Shown here piece after piece: positions 24,382 through 32,200 of a DNA stretch of 32,200 nucleotides. The stretch is from positions 1 through 32,200 of the forward strand of contig SYFR01000272.1 in assembly GCA_005800325.1 (NCBI GenBank), written 5' to 3'. Under the pieces are notes generated by a model. That model searched no databases. It was given only the letters and a program-made list of their open reading frames with translations, and was not told where the DNA came from. The position numbers and the translations under genes are program-made. Numbering within the stretch: position 1 is the first letter of the stretch; each line of letters opens with the position of its first letter. The DNA comes from Myxococcales bacterium (GTDB lineage: Bacteria > Myxococcota_A > Polyangia > Polyangiales > Polyangiaceae).

Positions 24382-27315
24382 ATGCAGGACGACCTGATCG
24401 AGACTGTCTGGGAGCAATTCGGGCTCGAGACCGAAGACCACCTCGAGCAGGTCGAGCCGTTGCTCATCAAGGCCGAGACCGAGGCGCTGTCGGAGCTCGA
24501 GATCGCCGAGCTTTTCCGCTCGTTTCACTCGATCAAGGGTGTCGCACGGCTGCTCGATCTCGGCGCGATGGAGGCCGTGACTCACGCCGCGGAGGACCTC
24601 CTCGGGCTCGTGCGCGACGGCACCCTGCCACTCGACGGGCGCACGATTGGCCCGCTCGTAGAGGCGTTCGACTGCATTCGCTCGCTGCGCACGTTGGCAG
24701 TCGCCGAGCGACGCGACGGTGAGCGCCCCGACGCCTTGGTCGAGCGACTCAGAGTCGTGGCGGCGAGCCCCGGAGGCCCGCCGACGACCAAGGCCGCAAG
24801 GTCGGGCTACGTCGCGGCGCTGCACGAGGATGCGGGCCTCCTCGCCTTCTACGTCGACCTCTTGCGTGCAGAGCTCCCAAGCCTCGCCGGCCTCTTCGAC
24901 AAGTCCGGGGTGACCCCGACCGAGACGCTCGAGGCGCTCGAGCTGCTGGGGAACGCGGCACTCGAGCTCGAGCTCGTCCGCGTGGCGGACCTGCTCGCCG
25001 ACGTCGCAGAGCTCGCGACTCCGAGCACGCCCAAGCCCGGGTCGCGCGCCTCCGCCGCGATGCTCGGCTTGCTCACCGACGTGACCGAGGCGGTGCGACT
25101 CATCGAGGACGAGGCCTCGTCCTCGGCCGGCTCGGAGGCGCTCGAGGCGCTGCTCTCGGAATCGATCGCCGCGCGCGTCCGCCGCTCGCTCGAACAGCTG
25201 CTCGCTGCGGTCGCGCTGCTCGAGCCCGCAAATGAGGGCGCCTGGGACGCGCCGCACGTCGCGTCGCTCGCAGCCGCGTGCCACCGCGACCTCGAGGTCC
25301 TGCGAGAGGAGCGAGGGCGGACCCTCGGGCTCTTGCTCGAAGAGTGCTTCGCACGCCTCGCCGCAGGGGAGCGCCAGGCCGGCCTCGGGCAGCTCGGGCA
25401 GCTCGTGAACCTCGCGCGCCGCGCGGCGGGCGTGATGTGGCGCCTGATCGACGATCCCGCGAACGAGGTTCCACGCCGCGATGCGCACGGCCTCATCGAG
25501 CAACTTCAGCGCTTGCTCAGGAGCGAGGGCGCCGGGCTCGACGACGGGATGCTCGAGAGCCTTCCAGAGACCTACGGCATCAGCGCGGGACTCGCCGAGC
25601 TCTTGCCCACCGACAAGGCGCGCGAGGTCGACGATGCGCTTCGCGGGGGACAGCTCGCCTACGAGGTCCTCGCCCACCTCGAGAGCTCACCCGAGCTCGG
25701 AATGCGCTTCATGCGGTGGCTCGGCGGCGGAGAGCTGAAGCCGATGACGAACCGCACCGTCATTCGCGACGAGCGAGCCTGGTTCGAGTTCCTCGTCATC
25801 TCGCCGCTCTCGCCCGAGGCGTTCCGCGAGAAGCTCGGTCATGTCGGCGGCACCGAGGAGCGATACCTGCACATGCGCGTGTGCGGCAGCGACGCCGCCC
25901 CCGATTCGGCCGGATCCCGGCGCCCGCCGTCATCGATCGCCCCCCCGTCGACGGCGAATGAGCGCCCGACGGAGGTGCACGCGCAGACGCTCCGCGTCCC
26001 GAGCGAGGTGCTCGACCGCTTCATGGTCCACATCGGTGAGATGGTGAGCGTGCGGGCGAGGCTGAACCACACCCTCTTCGACGGGCGTGCGAGCGCCGAA
26101 CGCACGGCGCGCCTCCGCGAGCTCGAGGCCGGGATCGCCCCCGCGCTTCGCGGCGCCCTGTCGCAGCTGGCGAAGGAGCTCGACGCCAAGGACGAGGTCC
26201 ATGGCAGGCTCGATTCCATCGACGAGCAGCTGCACGACGCGCTCGGGAGGCTTCAGCAAGGAGCGCTCGAGCTTCGGGTCGTGCCGATCGACACGGTCTT
26301 CAAGCGGCTGCCGCGCTCGGTGCGCGATCTCGCGCAGAGCCTCGGCAAGCGCGTGCGCTTCGAGATGAGCGGCCAGGACGTGCGCATCGACAAGGCGATG
26401 GTCGAGGTGCTGCTCGATCCGCTCGTTCACATGGTCCGCAACAGCCTCGACCACGGCATCGAGCTGCCCGAAGAGCGCGAGGCTGCCGGCAAGCCGCCGA
26501 CCGCGAGCCTGCACCTGCGCGCGCACCAGCGCGGCGGGCACGTCGTGGTCGAGGTGTCCGACGATGGGCGCGGGATCCCGACCGAGCTCGTCCGCAAGCG
26601 CGCCGTGGAGCGCGGGCTCGTGAGCGCGGCGGGCGCCGAGCGACTTGGCGACGAGGCCGTGCTCGACTTCATCTTCGCGGCCGGCTTCTCGACGGCGGCG
26701 CGCGTCACCGAGACCTCGGGACGGGGCGTCGGAATGGACGTCGTGAAGACCAACGTCTCGCGCGCGGGCGGCAGCGTGAAGGTGACCTCGCGCCCCGGGC
26801 GCGGCACGGTGTTCACGCTCACGGTGCCGCTCTCGGCGGCGATTCAGGAGACGCTGCTCGTCACCGCCTCGGGGCAGAGCTTCGCGCTGCCGAGTCGCTA
26901 CGTGGCCGAGGTCGTCGATGTGGCGGCGAGCGAGCTGAAGGAGATCGCCGGACAAGATGCCGTCCTCTTGCGAGACGAGTTTCTGCCGGTGGCGCCCCTC
27001 GCGCGCCTGCTCGGCATGGGCGAGCCGCGAGCGGCCGAGCGCCGCACCCTGCTCGTGCTCGCGAGCGATCGGCACAAGGTCGGCCTCATCATCGACGCGA
27101 TCGGTCGCACGCAGGAGCTGTTCGTGAAGGACGTGCACCCCGAGCTCGCTCGCCTGCCGGGGATCGGCGGCGCCTCGACCCTCGGCGACGGCAGCGTCGT
27201 CTTGATCCTCGACGCCGAGGAGCTCATCGGCCTCGTGCAGCGCCACGGGGCGAGGCCGACCCAAGCGGTGCCGCCGCCCCCGAGCCGAAGACTCGCGTCG
27301 CTGATGTCGCACTGA
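24382..27315 (+). CDS. cheA: Chemotaxis histidine kinase CheA with a long Hpt-to-kinase region
   Basis: Hpt LFRSFHSIKGVARLLDL; HATPase DPLVHMVRNSLDHGIE, VEVSDDGRGIP, SGRGVGMDVVKTNV, GRGTVFTLTVPLS; C-terminal CheW-like regulatory domain. Confidence 0.95.
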   Translation: MQDDLIETVWEQFGLETEDHLEQVEPLLIKAETEALSELEIAELFRSFHSIKGVARLLDLGAMEAVTHAAEDLLGLVRDGTLPLDGRTIGPLVEAFDCIRSLRTLAVAERRDGERPDALVERLRVVAASPGGPPTTKAARSGYVAALHEDAGLLAFYVDLLRAELPSLAGLFDKSGVTPTETLEALELLGNAALELELVRVADLLADVAELATPSTPKPGSRASAAMLGLLTDVTEAVRLIEDEASSSAGSEALEALLSESIAARVRRSLEQLLAAVALLEPANEGAWDAPHVASLAAACHRDLEVLREERGRTLGLLLEECFARLAAGERQAGLGQLGQLVNLARRAAGVMWRLIDDPANEVPRRDAHGLIEQLQRLLRSEGAGLDDGMLESLPETYGISAGLAELLPTDKAREVDDALRGGQLAYEVLAHLESSPELGMRFMRWLGGGELKPMTNRTVIRDERAWFEFLVISPLSPEAFREKLGHVGGTEERYLHMRVCGSDAAPDSAGSRRPPSSIAPPSTANERPTEVHAQTLRVPSEVLDRFMVHIGEMVSVRARLNHTLFDGRASAERTARLRELEAGIAPALRGALSQLAKELDAKDEVHGRLDSIDEQLHDALGRLQQGALELRVVPIDTVFKRLPRSVRDLAQSLGKRVRFEMSGQDVRIDKAMVEVLLDPLVHMVRNSLDHGIELPEEREAAGKPPTASLHLRAHQRGGHVVVEVSDDGRGIPTELVRKRAVERGLVSAAGAERLGDEAVLDFIFAAGFSTAARVTETSGRGVGMDVVKTNVSRAGGSVKVTSRPGRGTVFTLTVPLSAAIQETLLVTASGQSFALPSRYVAEVVDVAASELKEIAGQDAVLLRDEFLPVAPLARLLGMGEPRAAERRTLLVLASDRHKVGLIIDAIGRTQELFVKDVHPELARLPGIGGASTLGDGSVVLILDAEELIGLVQRHGARPTQAVPPPPSRRLASLMSH

Positions 27316-27334
27316 CGAGCCCCAAGATCGCGCC

Positions 27335-28348
27335 GTGAAAGCGCCCATTTCCCCGCACCAATCGCTGGGCACCGAGGCTTCGGCGGAGGAGACGCGCGCG
27401 CCCGAGTCAGGCCCTGCCCCGCGCGATCGTAGTGCACGAGACGTCCAGGAGCACCTCGAGGAGGTGGTCTCGCGGCTCATGTCCCTCTGCGAGGAGCGCT
27501 TCGGCCTACGCCCCGCGCGTGAGGTGCACGACAAGCTGGTCGCCGTCTTCGGCCAGACGCCGCGGCACACTCTCGATGCCTGGGTCGAGCGATTGGCGAG
27601 CCGCGACGCGGACGACGTCGAGTGGCTCGGCGTGGTCGAGGACCTCACGGTCCACGAGACGTACTTCTTCCGCGACGAAGAGCAGCTCGACTTTCTGCGC
27701 AACCGCATCCTCGTCCCGCTCATTCGCGAGCGCCGCGCGCGGGCGGACTTCACGCTGCGGATCTGGTCGGCGGCCTGCGCGACCGGCGAGGAGACCTACA
27801 CGATCGCCATGCTGCTCCTCGACGCGATGCGCGAGCTCGGCGAGGCGACCGAGGAGCTCGACGGCTCGATCGTGCTGCCGCTGCCCTGGTCCGTCGAGGT
27901 CGTCGGCACCGACGTAGCGCGCCCGGTGCTTCGCACGGCCGCGACAGGCACGTACGTCGTCACCGAGTACGGCTCGTTCCGGCAGCTCGACGCGTCACGA
28001 TGGGGCAGGCTGTTCGAGGACGCTGCACCTCCAGAGCACGCCGCATTCAAGAGCCTCACCTGGCGCCGACCGAAGGACTGCGTTCGACGGCTCGTGCGTT
28101 TTCGCCCGCACAATCTCTGCGACGCCACACCTCCAGGCGCGGCCTTCGACGTGGTGACGTGCCGCAACGTGTTCATCTACTTCGACGCGCCGAGCCAAGC
28201 GCGTGCAGAACGAACGATCGCGCGCGCGCTCGCTCCGGGCGGCGCCCTCGTCATGGGACCCACCGACCGGCTCATGCGGCGAGAACACTTTGCGGCCGCG
28301 TGGCACGAGAACTTTCTCTACTTCGTCCGGACGGAGATCCCCGCGTGA
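27335..28348 (+). CDS. cheR: CheR-type methyltransferase (CheR2)
   Basis: EERFGLRPAREVHDKL, LTVHETYFFRDEEQLDFLR, IWSAACATGEETYTIAM, VVGTDVARPVL, FDVVTCRNVFIYFD; paralog of CheR1. Confidence 0.93.
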   Translation: MKAPISPHQSLGTEASAEETRAPESGPAPRDRSARDVQEHLEEVVSRLMSLCEERFGLRPAREVHDKLVAVFGQTPRHTLDAWVERLASRDADDVEWLGVVEDLTVHETYFFRDEEQLDFLRNRILVPLIRERRARADFTLRIWSAACATGEETYTIAMLLLDAMRELGEATEELDGSIVLPLPWSVEVVGTDVARPVLRTAATGTYVVTEYGSFRQLDASRWGRLFEDAAPPEHAAFKSLTWRRPKDCVRRLVRFRPHNLCDATPPGAAFDVVTCRNVFIYFDAPSQARAERTIARALAPGGALVMGPTDRLMRREHFAAAWHENFLYFVRTEIPA

Positions 28349-29394
28349 CCGGCATGACCCGCGTCGTGGTCGCCTGCTCGTCGACGTTCGCGCGCGCGAT
28401 GCTCCGCCAGATCCTCGAGGATTCCGGGGCGATCCGCGTGGTCGGCGAGGTGACCGAGGCCGCCGATCTCGCGGGCATGACGGGGCGGCTGCAGCCTGAG
28501 CTCGTCCTTGTCGAGGCGTCGATGGTCGGCGCGGAGGCGTCGGTGACGGCGCTCGCCCACGCGGCGCAGGCTCCCGTCATCGTCGTGAGCGCGTACCAAG
28601 AGCTCAACGCCGCGGCCGCGGTCCGCCTGCTCCAATGCGGCGCGGCCGACGTCGTGACGGGCGATGCGCGCCGCACGGCCCTCGGCATCACGAGCCTCGG
28701 CAGCGAGCTCGTCGCCAAGATCGCCTTCTGGGCGCGACGTGGTCCGCTTCGCCCAGCACGCACGAGCGACGAGCCGCCCCCCTCGTCCGTCGCGCCGAGT
28801 CGGCGCACCGAGAGCGTCGACTTGATCGTCATCGGCGTGTCCACCGGAGGCCCGCGGGCCCTCGTCGAGCTCCTGCGTTCGCTAGGGAGGCTCGTCTGTC
28901 CCGTCGTGATCGCGCAGCATATGCCAGCGGCCTTCACCGGAAGCCTCGCCAAGCACCTCGCGCGTGAGACGGGCCACTCCGTCGTCGAGGGCAGCGCCGA
29001 CCTCGCGCTCGAGCCCGGACTCATCGTCGTCGCTCCCGGCGAGCGCGACAGCGCGGTCGTGCGGCGCGGCGGGGGCTTGTCGCTGCGGGTCACCGAGCCG
29101 TCCGCGGCGCTCGTTCATCCCTCGGTCGACGCGCTCTTCGTCTCGGCGGTCACGCACGCGCGGCGCCCCGCGGCGGTGGTGCTGACGGGCATGGGCACCG
29201 ACGGCAGCCTCGGCGCCGGCCAGTTCGCACAGCGAAAGCTCTCGGTCGTCGTTCAGGCGCCGCAGTCCTGCGCGGTCGACGGGATGCCGAACGCCGTCAT
29301 CGCCGCGGGTCACGCGACCGACGTGCTCGAGCTCGCGCAGATCGCGCGCCGGCTCATGCGCTGGGCCGGGCGCTTCGATGCCGCGATGGCCTGA
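28345..29394 (+). CDS. cheB: CheB-type methylesterase (CheB2) with pseudo-receiver
   Basis: Methylesterase GVSTGGPR, IAQHMPAAFTGSLAKHL, LTGMGTDGS intact; receiver reads VVVACSSTFARAMLRQIL...PELVLVEASMVG...GAADVVTGDA. GTG 28345 overlaps the CheR2 stop (GTGA); ATG 28354 is an alternative. Confidence 0.88.
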   Translation: MTGMTRVVVACSSTFARAMLRQILEDSGAIRVVGEVTEAADLAGMTGRLQPELVLVEASMVGAEASVTALAHAAQAPVIVVSAYQELNAAAAVRLLQCGAADVVTGDARRTALGITSLGSELVAKIAFWARRGPLRPARTSDEPPPSSVAPSRRTESVDLIVIGVSTGGPRALVELLRSLGRLVCPVVIAQHMPAAFTGSLAKHLARETGHSVVEGSADLALEPGLIVVAPGERDSAVVRRGGGLSLRVTEPSAALVHPSVDALFVSAVTHARRPAAVVLTGMGTDGSLGAGQFAQRKLSVVVQAPQSCAVDGMPNAVIAAGHATDVLELAQIARRLMRWAGRFDAAMA

Positions 29395-29466
29395 CTCCTC
29401 GGGCCGCCATTTTTTCGCCCGCGCGCGGACAAAAAAAGCCCCGCGCCGGGACCGCAAAGAAAAGCG

Positions 29467-29979
29467 TCAGACGACGTAAATGGCGATTTTTCCGGCACCG
29501 TAGCCGGTGATGGCCAGGTCGAGGTCGACGCGCCCGGGACACTTCTTCAGCATGGCGACGAGCGGTGGCGGCACCGCCGGTGGCACGGTGAGGAACTTGG
29601 TCAGCGACACCGTGAGGCCGGCCGCGCCGAGCTGCGCGTCGGTCTGATGGCCCACCCCGGTGAAGTTGAAGAGCCCCGAGGCGACGTTGAAGACCTCGCG
29701 CACGTTCTCGGCGAGCGTCGCGTCGAGCGCGCCTGCCCTCACCACCTCTTGCGCGCGCGAAGGCGGGATCATCGACAGCGCGGCGCCGAGGTTGGCAGCC
29801 GCCGCAAGATCGCAAGCCACGGCGGCTCCGAGGCTGCCGCTCTTGTCGCCGAAGAGCGCGAACACCGCGGCGCGCGACTCGGCGAGCGGCGCCGACGCCT
29901 TGGCGGTGACGGCGCGCCCGAGCAGGTCGGCGAGCACCTTGGCGATGTCGTCGGGGAGGGGTGGTTTTCGCTTCTGCAT
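29467..29979 (-). CDS. CheX/CheC-like protein, degenerate
   Basis: MQKRKPPLPDDIAKVLADLLG...LAENVREVFNVASGLFNF; ExxN-like motif, but no Pro near the expected downstream spacing; same operon as CheX and CheY. Confidence 0.55.
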   Translation of the reverse strand: MQKRKPPLPDDIAKVLADLLGRAVTAKASAPLAESRAAVFALFGDKSGSLGAAVACDLAAAANLGAALSMIPPSRAQEVVRAGALDATLAENVREVFNVASGLFNFTGVGHQTDAQLGAAGLTVSLTKFLTVPPAVPPPLVAMLKKCPGRVDLDLAITGYGAGKIAIYVV

Positions 29980-30027
29980 GGTGTCCCGTCGGGCGTTCGT
30001 AGCCAAGCTCGCGAGCGTGAGCTCCGG

Positions 30028-30513
30028 TCAGCCCTTGCCGCCCGGCAGCTCGACGGCACCGCGCAGCAGGATGAGCTTGGCCGGTACGTCGCCGATCATG
30101 ACGCCGCCGTCGAGGCGCTTGAGCCGCTCCGTCGGCGCGACCAGCCCCCAGATGAACACCGGCAGACCGAGATCCACGCGCTTGAGCTCGCCGTGCAACG
30201 CGCGCTGCATGACGCCGCCGAAGATGTTCACGATCTCGCCGACCGCGTCCGCGATGTCGCTATCGCTCAGCTCGTCTTCCGGGCCCATGCCGAGCAGCGA
30301 GCGGGTGAGGGCCGCCGCCCCGGCGCGCGTGGAAAACAGGCCGACGTGAATCGATTCGTGGTCCGAGAAGAGCGGCAGGAACGCGCCCGCCTCTTCGGGC
30401 ATGGAGCCTTCCGAGCGCTCGATGGGAGCGGTGCCGAGCGAGCTCGTGGCGACCTCGTTGAGCGCTCCAATGGCGGCCTCGAGCCAGGCTTCGAGCGTGA
30501 GGACAGACGTCAT
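30028..30513 (-). CDS. CheX-like CheY-phosphatase family protein
   Basis: DIADAVGEIVNIFGGVMQRALHGELKRVDLGLPVFIWG fits the D/S-x3-E-x2-N-(about 22)-P CheC/CheX motif; 4-nt overlap with cheY. Confidence 0.75.
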   Translation of the reverse strand: MTSVLTLEAWLEAAIGALNEVATSSLGTAPIERSEGSMPEEAGAFLPLFSDHESIHVGLFSTRAGAAALTRSLLGMGPEDELSDSDIADAVGEIVNIFGGVMQRALHGELKRVDLGLPVFIWGLVAPTERLKRLDGGVMIGDVPAKLILLRGAVELPGGKG

Positions 30514-30872
30514 TTCAGCACCGAGTCGAGGGTCGCCTTGAAGGTGTCGGCCGTGAAGGGCTTGGTCAGCACGAAGAGCGCCCCCGCGTTCTTTGCCTCT
30601 TCCTGCATCTCGGCCGTGCCTTGCGAGGTGACGAAGCCGAGCTTCACCGCGACGTTGCGCTCGCGCAGCGCCTTCGCCAGCTCGAGACCGTTCATCTCGG
30701 GCATCGCCCAGTCGGTGAGCACGAGATCGGGCGGGCTCGCGAGGATCGCCTCGAGCGCCTCTTTGCCATTGTTGGCTTCCACGATCTCGCAGTTGCCGAA
30801 CCCCGCCTGACGCAGGGTGCGATTGACGATCATTCGCATCGCCTTGCTGTCGTCGACGACCATTATTTTCAT
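30510..30872 (-). CDS. cheY: CheY response regulator
   Basis: MKIMVVDDSKAMRMIVNRTLRQAGF...DLVLTDWAMPEMNGLELAKALR...FVTSQG...GALFVLTKPFTADTF. Confidence 0.93.
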   Translation of the reverse strand: MKIMVVDDSKAMRMIVNRTLRQAGFGNCEIVEANNGKEALEAILASPPDLVLTDWAMPEMNGLELAKALRERNVAVKLGFVTSQGTAEMQEEAKNAGALFVLTKPFTADTFKATLDSVLK

Positions 30873-31163: not shown

Positions 31164-32200
31164 GTGACACGGCTCGTCCTCCAAGCAGCTCGCGCGCCGC
31201 TCGTTGGCGTGGTGCCCGGCACGCCCGACGAAGAGACCGCGACGCTCGCGGCCGTGGTCGCGGCGCTCGGTCCGCGCGGAGCTGTGAGCACGCTCCGCGG
31301 ACGCGGCCTCGGCGCGATCCCGGTCATCGCTGCCCTTCGCGACCTCGGCGTATCGGTCGAGCGTCGCGCCGGCGCGGCCGGCGGAGGCCTTTCGATCGTC
31401 GGGACCGGCGGTGCGCTCGCCGCACCTCGTCGCCCCATCGACTGCGGGGACTCGCCAGCGGCGCTCGCCGCGTTGACCGGTTGGCTCTCCGCGCTGCCCA
31501 TCGAGAGCACGGTCGACGCGGACGAGGCCGTCGCGCGACGCCACCTCTTCTCGATCGCGCGTGCGCTGCGACAACGTGGCGCGCTCATCGAAGGGCGCCT
31601 CGAGCCGAAGCGTCCGCGCGAGCTCGGAGCGCCGTGCGTCGTCGGCCCAGCCACGCAGGCGCCCTCGCCGCTCGAGCTCGCCCTCGCCGCCCACGAGCCG
31701 CTCGCCAAGACGGCGGCGCTCGTCTCGGGGCTCTTCGCGAACGGAGAGACGCGCATCGTCGAGCCGCTCGTCACGAGCGATTTCTGCGAGCGGATCCTCG
31801 TCGCGGCTGGCGCGAAGCTGCGCGCCGCGGGACCGCACCTCTTGCTCGAGCCGATCCCCGACGTGCCGATCCCGCGCTCGCTCGACGAGGAGCTTCCCGC
31901 CAGCCCGAGCTCGGCAGCGGGGCTCGTGCTCGCGGCGCTCGCGGTGCCGATGAGCCGAGTGGGCGTGCGCCGAGTCGTGGCGACGCCGCCTGCGCTCGGC
32001 TGGCTCGAGAGCCTGCGCGACGCCGGCGCCGCGCTGCACCTCGAGGCGAAGCCGGATGCCTGCGGCGTGCCTACGCTCGATGTAATCGCGGTCGGTCCGC
32101 CAGCCCGCGCGCTCGTGGTCGGCGGGGAGCGCGCCGCTCGCGCCGCTGTCGCGCTGCCGCTGCTCGCGGCGATGGCGGCCACTGCGCCGCGTGGGACCGC
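31164..32200 (+). CDS. AroA (EPSP synthase)-like fold protein, probable pseudoenzyme; truncated at the right window edge
   Basis: GTG-initiated frame (alternative GTG 31137), absent from the ORF track: ...RRPIDCGDSPAALAALTGWLSALPIESTVDADEAVARRHLF...EPLAKTAALVSGLFANGETRIVEPLVTSDFCERILVAAGAKL...ELPASPSSAAGLVLAALAVPMSRVGVRRVVATPPALGWLESLRDAGAAL aligns by eye to AroA block order. Confidence 0.7.
   Translation, partial: MTRLVLQAARAPLVGVVPGTPDEETATLAAVVAALGPRGAVSTLRGRGLGAIPVIAALRDLGVSVERRAGAAGGGLSIVGTGGALAAPRRPIDCGDSPAALAALTGWLSALPIESTVDADEAVARRHLFSIARALRQRGALIEGRLEPKRPRELGAPCVVGPATQAPSPLELALAAHEPLAKTAALVSGLFANGETRIVEPLVTSDFCERILVAAGAKLRAAGPHLLLEPIPDVPIPRSLDEELPASPSSAAGLVLAALAVPMSRVGVRRVVATPPALGWLESLRDAGAALHLEAKPDACGVPTLDVIAVGPPARALVVGGERAARAAVALPLLAAMAATAPRGT

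Follow-up and report, generated by a model that had tools for sequence, protein, structure and literature searches.

Class II AroA copies with damaged active sites are retained under purifying selection beside class I AroA in Polyangiales

Glyphosate targets EPSP synthase (AroA), an enzyme of central metabolism. Why would a bacterium keep a protein that has the fold of this enzyme but few of the residues that bind its substrates? The question is raised by a gene at the end of a 32,200-nt stretch of DNA (the window), which is the entire contig C218 of a 67.6% complete metagenome-assembled genome (MAG) from the family Polyangiaceae. The gene is an open reading frame (ORF) at 31164-32198 on the + strand, with a GTG start and 345 codons, stop-free up to base 32198. 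Because the contig end cuts the gene, the C-terminus of the protein is missing: full-length orthologs are about 450 aa, and about 100 C-terminal residues (the region of K340, E341, R344, H385, R386 and K411) lie beyond the window and are readable in orthologs only. The ORF is absent from the default ORF list because it runs past the contig end; the original prediction had wrongly blamed the GTG start, which the ORF tool does list. The same prediction had described an AroA-related ORF with five altered motifs, and all five quoted replacements are present in the + strand ORF, among the following features.

31164..32198, + strand: putative class II AroA-derived pseudoenzyme, from its motifs and its Pfam, TIGRFAM and phmmer matches; orthologs L229 (8001-9344), L231, L232 and L233
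31218..31241, + strand: GTPDEETA replacing GDKSxxHR; K22, S23 and R27 (E. coli AroA) lost
31443..31469, + strand: CGDSPAALA replacing CGNSGTTMR; N94, G96, T97 and R100 lost
31518..31547, + strand: ADEAVARRHL replacing GDxSLxxRPM
31695..31715, + strand: EPLAKTA replacing SAQVKSA; S169 and Q171 lost
31773..31793, + strand: TSDFCER replacing the class II signature SRDHTER; Arg lost
31983..32000, + strand: TPPALG replacing the class II signature NPTRTG; W280 comes next
32121..32141, + strand: GGERAAR replacing GGExxxR...DE, with a new Arg323

A chance or antisense reading of this frame is ruled out by homology and by codon-position GC, which at 0.82/0.59/0.86 favours the + strand frame over an antisense ORF. 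The Pfam model EPSP_synthase matches the protein above its curated cut-off (42.7 bits, E 4e-11), and phmmer aligns it with the solved EPSP synthase 3rmt (E 4e-22). The AroA equivalog model TIGR01356, whose cut-off is 287 bits, is failed both by the incomplete window protein (48.5 bits) and by the full-length ortholog L229 (80.8 bits), and the NCBIfam matches of the window protein include no MurA family model. AlphaFold, run on six sequences, gave pLDDT 84.5 and pTM 0.86 for the window protein and pLDDT 88.7 and pTM 0.88 for a full-length ortholog. The best Foldseek matches in the PDB are EPSP synthases, with TM 0.87-0.90 between the ortholog and the AroA of Acinetobacter and Coxiella. Sequence (phmmer and Pfam) and structure prediction (AlphaFold and Foldseek) thus agree on the enolpyruvyl transferase (EPT) fold that had been proposed, and the inside-out alpha/beta barrel is predicted to persist over the full length of the displaced protein.

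Could the window protein still be an EPSP synthase, working with unusual residues? It has the AroA fold and retains D93, K182 and other invariants; K182, which follows the lost SAQ, is kept in 15 of 15 aligned class II-derived sequences. Within the window genus (g1), however, just 1-2 of the 18 scored positions that bind shikimate-3-phosphate (S3P) or phosphoenolpyruvate (PEP) are retained, the C-terminal ones being read in orthologs. The window lacks K22, S23, R27, D49, N94, G96, T97, R100, S169, Q171 and D313, the last of these just downstream of GGERAAR, as well as the arginines of RDHTE and NPTR. RXHXE and NXTR, motifs of class II EPSP synthases (PMC4709569), are both absent. Ortholog G003 also lacks K340, E341, R344, H385 and R386, and the other members of the genus have lost nearly all of these. 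Together with the canonical AroA encoded elsewhere in the genome, these losses make continued EPSP synthesis by the window protein barely credible.

That canonical gene came from a Pfam search of the organism's own genome, which finds EPT domains in four places: a complete aroA on contig C313, parts of MurA on C449 and C459, and the window gene. It rules out the window gene as the sole aroA and supplies the second copy that the original prediction had suggested looking for. The C313 gene (L001 1420-2778) scores 310.9 bits with TIGR01356, above the cut-off of 287; its product carries KSMTQR, CGNAGTTMR, SSQ, KECDR and DDHRMAM, and it sits between an AroD-AroE fusion gene (L001 2866-4236) and a DAHP synthase gene. 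Judged by sequence, its product is a class I enzyme and presumably the active EPSP synthase of the organism. The proposal that the window encodes a non-catalytic or neofunctionalised EPT-fold paralog is therefore supported, and the data favour the non-catalytic over the neofunctionalised form without settling the choice.

Comparison with known families places the window protein more closely. It shares fold (TM 0.79-0.90), length and full-length homology with class II EPSP synthases (Agrobacterium CP4, Bacillus; TIGR01356 / PF00275), a class from which it would derive by sequence and partly shared synteny, but it lacks the S3P and PEP ligands, both class II motifs and the TIGR01356 score. Class I enzymes (E. 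coli AroA and the C313 protein) belong to the same fold family, whereas the window protein falls outside their class. MurA, the UDP-GlcNAc enolpyruvyl transferase, is a member of the EPT superfamily with a lower TM of about 0.7, and the genome has a MurA of its own, split over two contigs.

The closest relative of the window gene outside the genus, in a genome where class II is the sole aroA, encodes a canonical class II AroA. Such relatives carry GDKSIxHR, RDHTER, NPTRTG and GDHRIAM, while the ortholog is degenerate in all five genomes of the window genus. Canonical and degenerate copies have in common parts of a locus with the order hisC, a lipoprotein-like ORF, aroA, cmk, two uncharacterised ORFs and rpsA. 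Given the canonical relatives and the partly shared synteny, the most plausible reading makes the window gene the descendant of the order's ancestral class II aroA, and the C313 gene its replacement. The class I gene appears to have arrived later, as its patchy, lineage-specific distribution suggests, and the same distribution points to class I gain preceding class II damage. A contig scan with the single window sequence found no relatives; with the genus alignment it found five public MAG loci encoding relatives. Four apparently belong to the window genus, including Baikal-deep-G134 and two named Polyangiaceae bacterium, and the fifth is our genome G134 of genus g64. Uncharacterised ORFs of the kind seen at L062 4974-6005, 6135-7082 and 9301-10458, which have no Pfam match, recur around aroA, cmk and rpsA in the order; at least two have lipoprotein-like N-termini, and they share an N-terminal pattern of the type 'LLPG ... 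LD', so that they are possibly paralogs.

The pairing of a class I gene with a damaged class II gene is not confined to one genus. A survey of the order, covering 184 genomes (many of them MAGs) from 84 genera, located class II and class I aroA, and E. coli AroA served as the reference for scoring damage at 18 ligand positions. In this scoring the class II sequences are misaligned at S169, and SAQ was judged from separate alignments. Wherever a genome has both a class I gene and a class II copy, the class II ligand positions are damaged (32/32), from one position to nearly all. The positions left number 1-3 of 18 in g1, g3, g47, g56 and g64, 5-7 in g5 (2 species), g7, g31 and g60, and 11-14 in g22. 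The class I copies retain nearly all ligand residues. Among the 28 class II-only genomes scored, 25 have 18/18, G026 has 17, G021 has 16 and G118 has 3. The last, a 90% complete MAG, encodes a MurA and, as far as its assembly goes, no AroA other than the damaged copy (L105 / L129, contig C35); either an AroA gene is missing from the assembly or the shikimate step has been lost.

Genus g19 (L060 8774-10144, L091-L095; genomes of 7-15 Mb) mostly has a near-intact class II AroA beside class I AroA. Its class II copies keep 15 or 17 of the 18 positions, with 7 in one species; K340Q occurs in most, and G022, whose copy lies above the TIGR01356 cut-off, also has SAQ changed to CDQ. These copies look like an early stage of displacement, and their annotation as normal AroA is to be expected. 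With most of the active site kept, the proteins of g19 and g22 may still bind something or even work.

Shared ancestry keeps the survey counts from being independent, so an rpoB tree was built from 48 genomes. On this tree the presence of class I changes nine times or more; in every one of 9 independent pairs, the member with class I has either a damaged class II copy or none that was found (sign test p=0.0039). The class I sequences themselves fall in several separate lineages, those of g5 grouping with E. coli AroA.

A class II copy is undetectable in the class I genomes G012, G019, G027, G045, G046, G105, G106 and G169, in which cmk is usually present. In G169 cmk directly follows hisC and the lipoprotein-like ORF, the aroA copy being cleanly gone, and G045, G046, G105 and G106 have no aroA upstream of an intact cmk. 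Weak full-length EPT ORFs in G106, G045, G169 and G046, considered as diverged class II relics, were read as MurA or MurA-like. These genomes bear on the idea that the ORF is kept only for transcription or translation of the downstream cmk and rpsA. Several genomes with a damaged copy do have cmk immediately downstream of it, as that idea would have it. Operon polarity nevertheless fails to explain retention, because a clean loss of the gene next to an intact cmk has occurred in some lineages; moreover, the copy of G003 is intact although cmk does not directly follow it, and coupling of this kind would leave the amino acid sequence unprotected. The clean losses and the codon-model results below mainly rule this explanation out, and we regard it as very improbable.

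The complete absence of the class II copy from several lineages with class I, and the gradation of damage from g19 to g1, would also suit slow decay, in which the gene is a functionless relic caught before frameshifts accumulate. Yet not one of the 32 damaged copies has an internal stop, and all frames are intact. Pairwise codon models gave omega of about 0.03-0.15 for displaced copies in unsaturated pairs, and 2dlnL against omega=1 was at least 80 in all pairs, although dS is saturated in several, for which omega is not quantitative. Omega also lies well below 1 where two species descend from an ancestor whose copy was already damaged, as in G114-G115 (omega 0.125, dS 0.54, 2dlnL 146). The displaced copy has omega 0.134 in G000-G003 (2dlnL 119), 0.027 in G151-G156 and 0.030 in G153-G154; in g19 pairs it has 0.11-0.15 against 0.05-0.075 for class I. 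The displaced copy evolves faster than class I in g3, g5, g47 and g64; between G001 and G004 the dead copies are 70.6% identical and the class I enzymes 69.7%. Damaged copies also persist across the clade of g1, g56 and g64 despite large rpoB distances. The displaced copies are under purifying selection. They show neither the broken frame nor the omega near 1 of pseudogenes, and the window protein and its orthologs have instead the sequence traits of a pseudoenzyme: homology to an enzyme, loss of the catalytic residues, and an intact frame under purifying selection. Intact frames and omega thus largely rule out pseudogene decay, which we consider distinctly improbable.

In g1, g56 and g64, 43 canonical invariants are kept and 47 lost, the latter mainly in the ligand shell. 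Those kept are mostly Gly, Pro, Leu and Ala with a few charged residues, for example at E. coli positions 173 and 199. Within g1, former ligand sites have a pairwise identity of 0.37, against 0.61 for the remaining canonical invariants and 0.46 for all other positions, the pattern expected if only the active site had been released; the ligand sites of g64 and g3 show no clear difference in either direction. At the same time, R323, L317 and A287 are newly fixed in 9/9 sequences of g1, g56 and g64 (the canonical residue at 323 is L, T, V or I), and all g1 sequences, as well as G134, have W280. These residues leave room for a new function, and a new ligand or reaction in a cleft remodelled after displacement could also account for g22, eight species of which share K22R, Q171H and an acidic residue at K340 and keep R27, D49, R100, D313, R344, H385 and R386. 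Such neofunctionalisation is possible though unlikely: in g1, change at the former ligand positions outpaces change elsewhere in the protein, different lineages replaced these positions in different ways, and such fast, lineage-specific change points to relaxation more than to a newly conserved pocket.

A different role for a dead protein would be that of a regulatory partner that binds the class I AroA, or some other enzyme of the shikimate pathway, and tunes it, as some pseudoenzymes do with active paralogs. Damaged class II copies co-occur with class I AroA in all cases but one, and selection on the two is similar in g1. On the other hand, some class I genomes have no class II copy, and a specific interaction with class I would need repeated origin because the class I enzymes come from several separate lineages. 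We consider such a partnership improbable.

The reading towards which we lean slightly is that the displaced class II AroA is kept as a dead enzyme after class I takeover, for a second function that it already had. The freshwater Polyangiaceae lineage would have inherited class II AroA vertically and then gained a class I AroA, which now would make EPSP and free the class II copy of catalysis. The class II gene would have stayed at or near its ancestral site, losing the residues that bind S3P and PEP while its fold and frame were kept by purifying selection. If the class II AroA of the order already had a second, active-site-independent function, such as binding a partner or serving as a scaffold, each class I takeover would leave only that function under selection. 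The wider proposition, that class II AroA has such a function throughout the order, that class I displaced catalysis several times and that many lineages kept the protein for its second function alone, seems to us about evenly balanced.

Within this proposal, loss of activity in the displaced copies is probable from their sequences, and the data call for a function at the protein level with no need to bind S3P or PEP. We infer both that a second function exists and what its nature may be. A pre-existing function is simpler than a repeatedly evolved partnership or reaction, given that the class I enzymes come from several lineages; the class I lineages with no class II copy imply that it is dispensable or replaceable there. 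The conserved neighbourhood (cmk, rpsA and the lipoprotein-like ORFs) is only a lead to what it might be.

Pseudoenzymes as such are a known kind. Bacterial examples such as pseudo-orthocaspases (PMC6426788) are likewise homologs without catalytic residues conserved by selection; repeated origin by displacement is unusual among them. In the open-access literature searched, we found no report of an EPSP-synthase pseudoenzyme, an inactive AroA paralog or repeated displacement with retention, and nothing relevant on myxobacterial class I or class II EPSP synthases. The recurrence is the main point, as repeated displacement followed by preservation amounts to a comparative experiment and not an anecdote. 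If the proposal is true, there is a role still hidden in a housekeeping enzyme, and the displaced copies are natural separation-of-function variants that lack just catalysis, making that role directly searchable. For annotation, a match to the EPSP_synthase domain is not evidence of an EPSP synthase or of a glyphosate class.

The window also holds a chemosensory cluster (24382-30872), with CheA, CheR and CheB on the + strand, then a CheX-like ORF, CheX and CheY on the - strand, these three being divergent from the pseudo-aroA. The CheX-like and CheX ORFs adjoin the pseudo-aroA in G003 as well (L057 7817-8842) and not in other members of the genus.
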